A stretch of 58,781 nucleotides of DNA, from the NCBI GenBank assembly GCA_006226595.1, contig SBGP01000073.1, positions 1-58,781 of the forward strand. Reading direction: 5' to 3'. The notes below the pieces were generated by a model. That model saw only the letters and a program-made list of their open reading frames with translations, searched no databases and was not told the DNA's origin. This DNA is from Deltaproteobacteria bacterium (GTDB lineage: Bacteria > Myxococcota_A > UBA796 > GCA-2862545). Positions 53,427 to 58,781 of this stretch are shown here, piece after piece. Both the position numbers and the translations under genes were made by a program. Each line of letters opens with the position of its first letter. Position 1 is the first letter of the stretch.

Positions 53427-54434
53427 TTAGCTGGAAGCCTTGGCGAGCTGCATGGCCACGTCCTCGATCAGGTCCTCCTGGCCGCCGACCGTCTTCATTC
53501 GCCCCATCTCGACCAGGATGTCGCGGCTGGAGACGCCGTACTTGGCGCCCGCACGCTGGGCGAAGAGCAGGAAGCTCGAGTACACGCCTGCGTACCCGAG
53601 GATCAGCGCGTCGCGGTCGATGCGGACCGGCTGCTCCATCATCGGGACGATGAGGTCCTCGGCGACGTCCATCACGCCGTACAGATCGATGCCCGTGTCC
53701 ACGCCCATGCGGTCGAGCACGGCGACGAGCACCTCGGTCGGCGTGTTGCCGGCCCCGGCGCCGAGCCCGGCACAGCTGCTGTCGATGCGGTCGGCACCGG
53801 CCTCGATGGCCGCAAGGCTGTTGGCGACGCCCATGGCGAGGTTGTGGTGGCCATGAAAGCCGATCCGGGTCTCGGGCCGAAGCTCCGAGCGAAGGGCACC
53901 GATGCGCGCCGTGACGTCGTTGGGGAGCATGAAGCCCGCGGAGTCCGTGCAGTAGAGGATCTCCGCGCCGAAGTCCTCCATGATCTTCGCCTGCTTCACG
54001 AGCTCTTCCGGCGTCACCATGTGCGCCATCATCAGGAAGCCCACGGTCTCGGCGCCGAGCTCGCGGCTGATGCCGATGTGCTGCACCGCCACGTCGGCCT
54101 CGGTGCAGTGGGTGGCGACGCGGATGCACTGCACGCCACAGTCCACGGCCATGCGCAGGTCCTCGACGGTGCCGATGCCGGGCAGGGTGAGCGCCGAGAT
54201 CCGGGCCTGCTTCATCTTCGGCACCACCGCGCGCAGGTACTCCTCGTCGGAGTGCGCGGGGAAGCCGTAGTTCACGCTGGCTCCGCCGAGGCCGTCGCCG
54301 TGGGTGACCTCGATCAGCGGCACGCCGGCGGCATCGAGGGCACTCGCGACCGAGACCATCTCCTCGATCGAGATCTGGTGCCTCTTCGGGTGCATGCCGT
54401 CGCGGAGGCTCATTTCGTGGATGACTACGCCCAT
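53427..54434 (-). CDS. 4-Hydroxy-2-oxovalerate aldolase (BphI/HsaF-like)
   Basis: The 335-aa product cleaves 4-hydroxy-2-oxoacids to pyruvate and an aldehyde in meta-cleavage pathways, with aldehyde passed to the acylating dehydrogenase. Visible: [13 protein letters not shown] at the start, [22 protein letters not shown], the metal-site HGHHN near 195, [14 protein letters not shown], and a C-terminal [12 protein letters not shown]. Length matches BphI/HsaF (about 340-350). The ATG at 54,434 has GGGGG 4 nt upstream. Its first 12 or so codons are duplicated 170 bp upstream. The gene follows the aldehyde dehydrogenase in the operon. Confidence 0.93.
54387..54421. repeat. 35-bp direct repeat, copy in the aldolase gene
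   Basis: This segment, coding most of [11 protein letters not shown] at the start of the aldolase, is identical to 54,557-54,591. The two copies are 170 bp apart, which is not a multiple of three, so they are in different frames relative to the aldolase. Confidence 0.95.
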
Positions 54435-54493
54435 GCGGACCCCCTCACGCAGCTGCTGGTCGCGGTCGCCAGCGAAGGCCCCAAGTCGGCTAC

Positions 54494-54512
54494 CCCACAA
54501 CTTGCTTGTGGG
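54494..54512 (-). other. Hairpin inside the insertion between aldolase start copies
   Basis: CCCACAA and TTGTGGG form a perfect 7-bp stem with a 5-nt loop in the 135-bp spacer between the two repeat copies. It may be the mark of a small mobile or palindromic element; no known family is identified, and no T-run follows. Confidence 0.45.
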
Positions 54513-54556
54513 ATCCTCCCGATTTCGGGCCGGAGCGACTGCGACCGCTCTGTGGA

Positions 54557-54591
54557 CGGGTGCATGCCGTCGCGGAGGCTCATTTCGTGGA
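54557..54591. repeat. 35-bp direct repeat, copy in the displaced aldolase start
   Basis: This is the second copy of the repeat at 54,387-54,421. It sits 13 nt inside the end of the 54,425-54,607 frame. The sequence between the copies (about 135 bp) does not resemble aldolase. Confidence 0.95.
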
Positions 54592-54603
54592 CGGTGACCT
54601 TCC

Positions 54604-55473
54604 TCATGCGAGCCCCCGCATTGCCAGCAGCTCCGCGGTCTTCAGCGCCGCGGAGGTCATGATGTCCAGGTTTCCCGCGTACTTCGGCAGATAGTCGCCG
54701 AGACCCTCGACCTCCATCCACACGGTGACGCGGTGACCGTCGAAGACCGGGCCGTTCTTCAGCGTGTAGCCGGGCACGTAGGTCTGCACTTCGCGGACCA
54801 TGTCGTGGATGGAGGCGGTGATGGCCTCCTGATCCGGCTCGTCCTCGGTGAGGCAATGAATCGTGTCGCGCATGATGATGGGCGGCTCGGCCGGGTTGAT
54901 GACGATGATCGCCTTGCCCGTCCTGGCTCCGCCGACCGCCTCGATGCCCGCCCGGGTGGTGCGCGTGAACTCGTCGATGTTGCTGCGGGTGCCGGGACCG
55001 ATGGAGCGCGACGACACGGTGGCGACGATCTCGCCGTACTTCACGGTCTGAACGCGGGACACGGCCGCGACCATCGGGATGGTCGCCTGACCGCCGCAGG
55101 TCACCATGTTCACGTTGGGCGCGTCGACGTGCTCTTCGAGGTTCACCGGCGGGATGCAGTACGGGCCGATGGCCGCCGGCGTGAGGTCGATCATGCGCAC
55201 ACCGCGCGCGGTGAGCAGCTCGTTGTGGCGCGGGTGGTACTTCGCCGAGGTGGCGTCGAAGGCGATGGTCACCCCATCGGCGATCACCTCGTCGAGCACG
55301 GCCTCGAGTCCCTGATGCGAGGTCTTCACCCCGTGCTCGCGCGCGATGCGCAGACCGTCGGAGCTCTCGACGACGCCGATACTCCACACGACCTCGATGT
55401 GCTCGCTGCGCAGCGCCTTGTAGAGCAGGTCGGTGCCGATGTTGCCCGGCCCGATGATCACCGCTTTCGCCAT
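54604..55473 (-). CDS. Acetaldehyde dehydrogenase (acylating), MhpF/BphJ/HsaG-like
   Basis: The 289-aa product oxidises acetaldehyde (or propanal) with NAD and CoA to acyl-CoA in a complex with the aldolase. The N-terminus has GPGNIGTDL for NAD binding, Cys126 in [10 protein letters not shown] is the expected catalytic thiol, and the C-terminal region has [23 protein letters not shown]. Length is slightly under the usual 300-310. ATG at 55,473 has GAGGA 6 nt upstream, and two KstR-like operators lie at 55,487-55,526. It is transcribed before the aldolase. The usual hydratase gene is not adjacent. Confidence 0.94.
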
Positions 55474-56754: not shown

Positions 56755-57444
56755 CTAGAGCGCGCCCACCGCGGTGAGCTTGGCGGCGGCCTCGTCGCCG
56801 ACCACCGCGGCGAGGCTCGGGCTGATGCGCGCGAACTCCTCGTCCGTGTGGATGGTCTTGAGCGCAGCGGCGTACATGCGCACCATGCCGAAGGGGCGTG
56901 CCTCGTTGAGCTTCGAGAGCACCCAGGGCATCTGCCACTGCTCGGACTCGCTGCGGTCCGCCGCGTCGATGATGCGCTTCACAGCGGCGGCCCGGCCATC
57001 CACCGTGTCGGCCACCTTCTGGGTGAGGGGCATCATGATGTCCTCCTCGTGCTTCAGGTGGTGCTCGTTGTCCGCCGCCCACGCTTCGGCGGCGGCCTGG
57101 AGCTCGGCGATGCGTCCGCGGTCGTCGCCACAGGCCTGGATGAGCGACTCGATGCGCTCGAAGTGCGCATCCTCGCCTTCGTGCTGTCCGTGGAACCCGG
57201 CATGGCTCGCGGCGCCGTCGAACATCTCGTCGAGCATGGGGAAGAAGCCGGCCTCTTCCTGAGCGGCGTGCAGGCGGATGCAGCGGCGCAGCTCGGCCCA
57301 GCCGTGGGCCAGCTCTTCGAGCCTGGCGTCACTCGGGTCCGCGGCGAAGGCCTCGACGTGGGCGAGGAACGTGCTGCGGCAGATGCGGATGGCCTCGTGG
57401 GTGAGGCGCATGAAGGCAAACGGACGGACCTGGAATTCGGACAT
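56755..57444 (-). CDS. Hemerythrin-domain protein
   Basis: The 229-aa product is all-helical with hemerythrin HHE-type iron ligands: His in FLAHVEAF, His and Glu in RLHAAQEEAGF, His in GFHGQHEGEDAHF, and HHLKHEEDIMMPL. These may hold a di-iron site for oxygen or NO sensing or iron repair. The C-terminal 75 residues form an added helical part. The ATG at 57,444 has GGAGG 7 nt upstream. It stands alone beside the non-coding tail. Confidence 0.85.
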   Translation of the reverse strand: MSEFQVRPFAFMRLTHEAIRICRSTFLAHVEAFAADPSDARLEELAHGWAELRRCIRLHAAQEEAGFFPMLDEMFDGAASHAGFHGQHEGEDAHFERIESLIQACGDDRGRIAELQAAAEAWAADNEHHLKHEEDIMMPLTQKVADTVDGRAAAVKRIIDAADRSESEQWQMPWVLSKLNEARPFGMVRMYAAALKTIHTDEEFARISPSLAAVVGDEAAAKLTAVGAL

Positions 57445-57644
57445 TGGCAAACCTCCGGGGCACGATCCCTACCTCAGGCGAGCGCGGGAAGGGGAGCCGT
57501 TTGTATTTCTGAGAGTTGGGAAATTGATTTCACGCGAAGATCGGAAGTTCAGTCCCCGTGACGGAAGTGTGTATTCATCGAGATCCATGGCGATCGGACT
57601 CCCGCGAAATCGGCGGAACACCGCACGACATGCCCGAATACGAT

Positions 57645-57660
57645 GGGAAGACACATTCCC
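57645..57660. promoter_or_regulatory. GGGAA-N6-TTCCC inverted repeat upstream of the sigma-54-like site
   Basis: GGGAA at 57,645-57,649 and TTCCC at 57,656-57,660 form a dyad about 53 bp before the -24 element, and a CACATTC repeat follows. It could be an activator site for a sigma-54 enhancer-binding protein. Evidence is symmetry and position only. Confidence 0.35.
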
Positions 57661-57703
57661 GTCACATTCGACGAAAAGCGAGGTTCTATCGTGCCGCGAA
57701 AGT

Positions 57704-57719
57704 TGGCACGCTCCTCGCA
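57704..57719 (+). promoter_or_regulatory. Sigma-54-type promoter, -24/-12
   Basis: TGGCACG-CTCC-TCGCA matches the sigma-54 consensus TGGCACG-N4-TTGCA with one change (TTGC to TCGC). The invariant GG (57,705-57,706) and GC (57,717-57,718) are separated by exactly 10 nt. Expected transcription start is near 57,730 on the + strand, into the hairpin-rich region. No protein gene follows, so this would drive an RNA. Confidence 0.6.
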
Positions 57720-57785
57720 GTATGTCCTGCGACATCCGGGACCCGGTCGACGCAAGTCGGACGGGGACGATGCGACCGACACTGA

Positions 57786-57800
57786 GCTGGCTCGTCCAGC
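57786..57800 (+). promoter_or_regulatory. boxB-like hairpin upstream of boxA
   Basis: GCTGG/CCAGC with the 5-nt loop CTCGT forms a small hairpin 11 nt before the boxA-like element. The order hairpin then boxA is that of rRNA antitermination leaders. Confidence 0.5.
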
Positions 57801-57811
57801 AGGTCGGACCA

Positions 57812-57822
57812 GCTCTTTGAAC
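57812..57822 (+). promoter_or_regulatory. boxA-like antitermination element GCTCTTTGAAC
   Basis: GCTCTTTGAAC matches rRNA boxA elements such as GCTCTTTGAAA and GCTCTTTAACA, which bind NusB-NusE in RNA and let RNA polymerase pass Rho terminators. It lies about 80 nt after the predicted start and just before the hairpin-rich region, as would be needed to transcribe a long untranslated RNA. Confidence 0.55.
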
Positions 57823-58781
57823 GTCAAAAACCCCAAGAGGACCGCCGGCGCTTCGGTGCCCGGCAGCCTTCTTCCTCGGACAGACGCCTCCGTACTCGGT
57901 GTCGATGGTTCGCCCATCGGCTCCCGTGGAATCGGAAGCGGGATCGGCGAGCCCCTGCGAAGGGTCTCCCAGCGAGGAAGAACCGAGCTCGCGCTCTTCG
58001 GAGTCGAGCCGGCCAGGTCGAGAGGCCTGCGCGGTGATGTCCTGGAGGGGAACCAAGCCCAGGGAAGCAACGAGTCTCGGTCGGTTGGCAACGACGGGTC
58101 GAGACAACGGACTCGCTGGTGGAGCAAGGCCTCGAGGGCGCGCAGCCCGGTGACCACTCTCTCGTAGAGTGAGCGCACGGGAGCGACGCGGTCGAGTGCG
58201 ACGCAGAGCGGAAACAGATCGCCTGCGGAAGTGCTTCACCGACGCTACTCACTCTTCGGAGTGGGTCGTGGGACCCCGCACTTCGGTGCGGTGCATCGGC
58301 CTCGGTCGGTGCGGTGGTCGAAGGCAAGGTGCCTTCGGTCGGGGTCTGGCGAGGAGGGGAAGACCACGGTCGCCCCCCTCCGCTTGCAGGGATGTGAAGC
58401 CACCTTCCAGTAGCCGAGCAATCGGCTGCCCAACGTGGTGGAGGTCCTGCGAGATGCCTTCAGCGATGCGCTCGCGCATCGGTGTCCACGACGAGCTGTA
58501 TGGTCCTTGCCTACACGCAACGGGGAAACCCGCGGTGTGGTGGCGGGGTCACGGCACCTTCTCCTTTGCCCCGTGTGGGGATCCGCATCACGAACTGCCC
58601 AGGTTCGCGACACGGTGAAAGCACGGAGCAGTCGTCGCCGAAAGCGTCGACAGAGAAGGGGTCTGCGGGCCATGGCTGCGAAAGCAGCGTGGGTCGCGGC
58701 AGGTCGGAGTGCGGTGCGGTCGAGGAAGCGTCGGTCACTTCGGTGTCCGGGGCCAGTCGGTCGACGGTCCATGTCGGGTCG

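Follow-up and report, generated by a model that had tools for sequence, protein, structure and literature searches.

The right edge of the window, by which is meant the whole 58,781-nt stretch of DNA analysed here, raises the question of what is encoded by about a kilobase of sequence dense in small hairpins, and of how a cell would express and use it. The initial annotation had proposed a large ornate RNA belonging to a known or new class, a reading now supported by homologues, covariation, a promoter and a terminator, with no match in Rfam; the promoter, a boxA element, the multi-copy nature and the phylum-wide distribution go beyond that proposal. With a probability of roughly 0.6, the locus is the gene for a large multi-domain non-coding RNA of a class outside Rfam, activated by sigma-54 and antiterminated through boxA, whose predicted product is a stand-alone, trans-acting structural RNA. 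Comparison among genomes shows, at the level of sequence, a homologous family with a shared structure, a shared layout of promoter, boxA and terminator, and a defined distribution.

On the + strand of 57,730-58,781 there are 12 stems of at least 4 bp with UUCG (four) or GNRA (eight) caps, confirming the hairpin density noted in the initial annotation, compared to an average of 1.1 in dinucleotide shuffles (0 of 1,000 reach either observed count), two on the minus strand and a mean of 0.8 (maximum, 5) across 108 tiles covering the remainder of the window. Single-sequence folding of the same stretch gives z = -3.6. The window corresponds to the complete contig C110, which breaks inside the repeated RNA, and the earlier suggestion that the RNA exceeds 1 kb and ends outside the window is borne out by a full-length paralogue on contig C1 of the same genome (77% identity over the whole stretch). 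Homology between the window and C1 begins at the promoter region, and the C1 copy constitutes a full gene with a promoter, an RNA of ~1.83-1.85 kb and an intrinsic terminator (GACCCCCGAGUC-UCCG-GACUCGGGGGUC, then GTTTCGTTT). The same genome also carries the 3' half of the RNA on C42 (81% identity) and a diverged copy on C94. As C42, like C110, ends inside the RNA, the two contigs probably represent opposite ends of a single copy, divided where the sequence is nearly identical to C1. The window RNA probably continues into C42 26,352-27,026 (minus strand), and the full length of the gene is put at about 1.9 kb. The RNA would start ~12 nt after the -12 GC of the promoter. The features of the window copy are:

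57,644-57,661, + strand: inverted repeat TGGGAAGACACATTCCCG, a putative sigma-54 activator site (UAS) with the consensus TGGGAA-N6-TTCCCA
57,703-57,718, + strand: sigma-54 -24/-12 promoter TTGGCACGCTCCTCGC, a motif that recurs in the loci of the order
57,730-58,781, + strand: large RNA, 5' ~1.05 kb, aligned over the whole stretch with the C1 paralogue
57,770-57,778, + strand: 5' arm of the helix closing the first ~1 kb domain, AUGCGACCG with 58,765-58,772 CGGUCCAU
57,812-57,824, + strand: boxA-like antitermination element GCTCTTTGAACGT, of which TCTTTGA(CGT) recurs after promoters
57,831-57,842, + strand: 5' arm (CCCC and AGGAC) of a long-range helix in the consensus fold, pairing with 58,039-58,050
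57,870-57,981, + strand: arm closed by UCUUCCUCG/CGAGGAAGA, with compensatory changes at 3 of 8 pairs
58,032-58,142, + strand: conserved core B (AGGGGAACCAAGCCCA ... AACGGACUCGCUGGUGGAGCAA), the basis of covariance model R1
58,384-58,452, + strand: nested arm of three stacked helices with a GCAA-capped hairpin at 58,410-58,429 and 12 of 20 pairs compensatory

Elsewhere in the window, translations judged by eye include adjacent minus-strand genes resembling 4-hydroxy-2-oxovalerate aldolase and acetaldehyde dehydrogenase (53,427-55,473) and a minus-strand gene, divergent from the RNA, resembling a hemerythrin-domain protein (56,755-57,450).

Covariation, named in the initial annotation as a check on its proposal, is present. 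In an alignment of the kilobase from four genus-level copies (57-80% identity), the consensus fold holds 248 pairs, an approximate structure as are all MFE/alifold structures of kilobase-size RNAs, with 90 compensatory pairs compared to 47±6 (maximum, 58) in 30 pattern-preserving column shuffles and a consensus energy of -233 kcal/mol compared to -149±8. Two covariance models were used for the wider family: R1, with 111 positions covering core B and built from ten loci, and R2, built from 30 loci for a second module, which the truncated window copy lacks. Standard pairs make up 98.3% of the cells in that module, with double changes at 12 of 14 pairs; when the partner strand is slid by 1-3 columns, pairing falls to 24-40%, and no shuffle equals the observed values. 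Kinship among the sequences inflates covariation counts of this kind somewhat, but it is preserved in the slid-partner controls. The core-B hairpin (58,074-58,105) behaves similarly over 10 loci, with 89.9% of cells paired, double changes at 11 of 13 pairs and 30-47% pairing in the slid controls. Core B of the window scores 119.8 bits against R1 (E 7.5e-31), being itself among the building sequences of that model.

The long-range helix connects the segment right after boxA with the segment before core B, and in its variable arm the complementarity within each locus beats that with swapped partners (16 loci; 0 of 2,000 permutations as good). The helix closing the first domain has eight pairs and no broken cell, and is only weakly tested because seven of the eight pairs are invariant. 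Among the best-supported arms of the kilobase fold is the nested GCAA-capped hairpin singled out in the initial annotation: the AGCCGA-GCAA-UCGGCU stem extends over 58,410-58,417/58,422-58,429 with compensatory changes at 6 of 8 pairs relative to three relatives, and is nested within 58,399-58,402/58,436-58,439 (2 of 4) and 58,384-58,391/58,445-58,452 (4 of 8), against the same three relatives. As judged from these alignments, the RNA has the extensive covarying secondary structure of a large ornate non-coding RNA, with conserved internal loops and hypervariable arms capped by UUCG or GNRA.

The transcription unit is nearly constant across the copies of the window's order and consists of the inverted repeat, the sigma-54 promoter, the boxA TCTTTGACGT, the folded RNA and, usually, a detectable terminator; the models that located the cores contain no promoter information, yet the promoter, inverted repeat and boxA lie beside them. 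TGGCACG-N4-NNGC precedes the core by no more than 800 nt in 37 of the order's 40 loci (antisense strand, 0 of 40; shuffles, 0.75%), with the window and C1 copies having a -12 TCGC, not the usual TGC, and so a slightly weaker sigma-54 match. Of the 35 promoters in the order that could be tested, 29 have TGGGAA-N6-TTCCCA at a distance of 55-61 nt ahead of TGGCACG, most at 58-61 nt, and the window repeat differs from this consensus by one mismatch (0 of 100 shuffles as good). Promoters of the GG-N10-GC type require sigma-54 and an activator; the co-occurrence of such a promoter with an upstream activator site marks this, by motif, as a sigma-54-dependent gene with predicted activator binding.

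All 35 listed promoters are followed, 69-121 nt beyond TGGCACG, by the third element, TCTTTGA(CGT), of which G013 has a one-letter variant (TTGTTTGACGT). A search for 16S in the window's own genome found none and the comparison was therefore made with the rrn leaders of relatives, where same-family genomes carry GGTCTTTGAAA (G003) and GATCTTTGAAA (G004), on which basis the element is read as a boxA with predicted NusB/S10 binding; the rrn leaders of G005 and G073 differ (GCTCCTTGA). The gamma-proteobacterial boxA consensus is GYTCTTTAANA (PMC5725501), and boxA together with Nus factors shields long untranslated transcripts from Rho (PMC5725501, PMC12691694). Relative to the antitermination system of rRNA operon leaders described in those studies, the RNA gene shares the boxA sequence and its position early in a long transcript that is not translated, while the transcript is not rRNA and the promoter in the order is of the sigma-54 and not the sigma-70 type. 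Outside the order, boxA is kept in several families as GGTTCTTTGAAACTTTGCAGAGC or close variants, with sigma-70-like promoters (e.g., TTGACA-N17-TAGAGT in G139 and TTGACG-N17-TATAGT in G108), and sigma-54-like promoters occur in G102, G134, G301, G313, G184 and G232. Where the flank is long enough, most loci have a candidate terminator, at 1.0-2.7 kb; compact versions of the RNA, of about 1.0 kb and 1.27 kb, occur in G005 and G052, respectively. Three copies in G003 (L113, L114 and L115) have predicted transcripts of ~2.65-2.7 kb, nearly the length of 23S rRNA.

Homologous loci in related genomes, which the initial annotation had called for, are widespread. With R1, matches come from 28 of the order's 63 genomes and from 40 of the 379 genomes sampled over the phylum; with R2, they come from 74 of the 379, representing 50 of 236 genera, and the copy number reaches six in one genome (G066). 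A sequence-pattern search of genome contigs was too strict and recovered four near relatives only, far fewer than the covariance models. The relatives are mostly MAGs and include the MAG UBA796, whose name is also that of a GTDB order of Myxococcota (PMC11821767), on which basis the phylum is assigned as Myxococcota. Within the families that carry it, many genomes have no detectable copy (by R1, 35 of the 63 in the order), so the RNA is not essential everywhere, with the caveat that assemblies break at these repeats. A same-genus genome has at least four copies. Assemblies break repeatedly within or beside the RNA (C110 and C42 in G000, the window's genome; C52, C114 and C144 in G001; C13 in G010; C118 and C124 in G019), and copy numbers in draft genomes are therefore underestimated. 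Overall, the RNA looks to be vertically inherited, with lineage-specific duplications.

Expression and a start at the sigma-54 promoter are predictions, as are activator binding, antitermination and action in trans. In the mechanism proposed, RNA polymerase with sigma-54 would switch the gene on in the window's order, with a specific enhancer-binding activator acting at TGGGAA-N6-TTCCCA, and the RNA would be made conditionally in the sigma-54 lineages. Early in the nascent transcript, boxA would recruit NusB/S10 as in rRNA operons, shielding from Rho a kilobase-scale RNA that is not translated. The RNA would then fold into its ornate structure, stop at its own intrinsic terminator (1.0-2.7 kb in relatives) and act in trans as a structural RNA, either as a ribonucleoprotein scaffold or as an RNA-only assembly. 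The scaffold or assembly role is a working view that rests on the size of the RNA, the stand-alone genes and the complexity of the fold. A bolder formulation, that this is a Myxococcota-wide class with a dedicated sigma-54 activator and rrn-type antitermination, forming a particle or scaffold built of RNA whose function is unlike that of any known bacterial RNA, is offered tentatively, as a possibility short of even odds.

The most serious alternative is a large regulatory RNA that acts by base-pairing or sequesters a regulator (a sponge, or a decoy like 6S or CsrB), with the hairpin arms as repeated binding sites. Sigma-54 control, many similar hairpin loops and several copies per genome with divergent arms would all fit such a role, but conservation lies in specific helices of long range and in unique internal loops, not in one repeated loop sequence, the loops mix UUCG with GNRA, which mostly stabilise or dock RNA, and the RNA is far larger than known decoys; a regulatory role of this kind is judged unlikely, at perhaps a third of the weight given to the structural RNA.

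The surroundings of the gene bear on whether it could be mobile or selfish, as an ORF-less group II intron, a transposon RNA of the HEARO/OMEGA type or a phage or satellite RNA such as GOLLD and ROOL. Dispersed, contig-breaking copies with divergent arms, up to the six in G066, are what such an element would produce. Against this, no protein family recurs generally beside the RNA among 537 candidate neighbour ORFs at 50 loci, and so there is no recurrent transposase, reverse transcriptase or integrase; nor was a group II intron, HEARO, GOLLD or ROOL match found in Rfam. GOLLD and ROOL reside in prophages or phages, often near tRNA islands, whereas no tRNA was found in 10 RNA loci and no homologue on known phages, plasmids or in IMG/VR patterns (one viral-contig pattern match, L082, was a chance match to the start of a phage gene), and the neighbours examined are ordinary chromosomal genes. 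The homology of the window to C1 starts at the promoter region, and synteny is kept locally, in that four of the family's genera (G000c, G008b, G013 and G015b) retain two downstream genes at one locus, and a second locus adjoins rho in three genomes from a second family. A mobile element is consequently quite improbable, and the lack of a general neighbour, the purely local synteny and the absence of tRNA, phage or plasmid links favour a stand-alone, trans-acting and vertically inherited RNA. OLE has dedicated partner proteins; across the same 50 loci no family recurs that could be a linked partner gene.

Several individual neighbours were recorded. At the second syntenic locus (L037:8225-9544, L038:51-1253) the RNA gene and rho are divergently oriented; rho encodes the terminator protein that boxA would counteract. 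The G015 copy has a dksA-like gene nearby (L046:1712-2140). Directly upstream of the C94 copy, on the same strand, is an NtrC-family response-regulator sigma-54 activator (L006:6493-7929, minus), which is a candidate activator of the RNA but has no homologue beside any other copy and is therefore not claimed as the regulator.

A long structured leader of a downstream gene, similar to a riboswitch-containing 5' UTR, would likewise begin at a promoter and could end in an attenuator-like terminator, but is contradicted by the differing neighbours among loci, with downstream genes that are not conserved across the family and often convergent, and sits poorly with the kilobase length and the strong terminator at the end, making this very unlikely. 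As for coding potential, the initial annotation's statement that there is no protein-like frame holds in part: open frames of >170 aa exist on both strands (e.g., 57,469-58,239, minus, 256 aa), as is usual at such G+C, and alignment gaps among the relatives hardly ever have lengths divisible by three (10 of 11 frame-breaking for the window against the C1 paralogue, 30 of 31 against G001 copy a), so these frames are not conserved genes and the stretch reads as non-coding. A coding substitution pattern, which would have told against the RNA, is thus not what the relatives display, and the idea that a coding region in high-G+C DNA gives rise to these features by antisense or by chance, for which only those open frames speak, has a negligible probability given indels that are not in threes, compensatory changes far exceeding column shuffles and a conserved promoter and terminator.

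To our knowledge very few kilobase-scale, protein-free classes of bacterial RNA exist (GOLLD, ROOL and OLE), two of them largely phage-borne. The RNA described here is chromosomal and multi-copy, with a predicted length of up to 2.7 kb, close to that of 23S rRNA, and is found in about one fifth of the sampled genomes of the phylum. As its sigma-54 promoter is phased and is combined with a boxA of the rRNA type, there is a clear prediction of when and how the cell would transcribe it, and many diverse homologues are available for structure determination. Rfam 15 at gathering thresholds gave no match in the window or 10 relatives, and at permissive E-values the RNA stretch and 12 further relatives gave only isolated chance scores and nothing recurrent; the strong Rfam or rRNA hit that would have overturned the initial annotation did not appear, and the RNA is not described in the open-access literature searched. 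The likeness to GOLLD, ROOL and OLE is one of kind only, with no detectable homology. GOLLD (PMC12286853) is also a giant ornate bacterial RNA, with many examples >800 nt and with one conserved and one more variable region, compared to which the present RNA is chromosomal, multi-copy and about twice as long, carries a sigma-54 promoter and boxA, and has no detectable similarity in sequence or structure. ROOL (PMC12286853) shares the large ornate form and the absence of a known protein partner, but is not homologous, is prophage-linked and is 659 nt in the studied example, compared to 1.0-2.7 kb on the chromosome here. OLE (PMC12286853) is, like this RNA, chromosomal, large and ornate, and differs in belonging to another phylum, in showing no homology and in the adjacent gene, which does not recur here. 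On the strength of these sequence comparisons, the RNA, with its unusual transcription unit, is judged to form a new class among the large ornate non-coding RNAs, joining GOLLD, ROOL and OLE in kind as a member of none of them.
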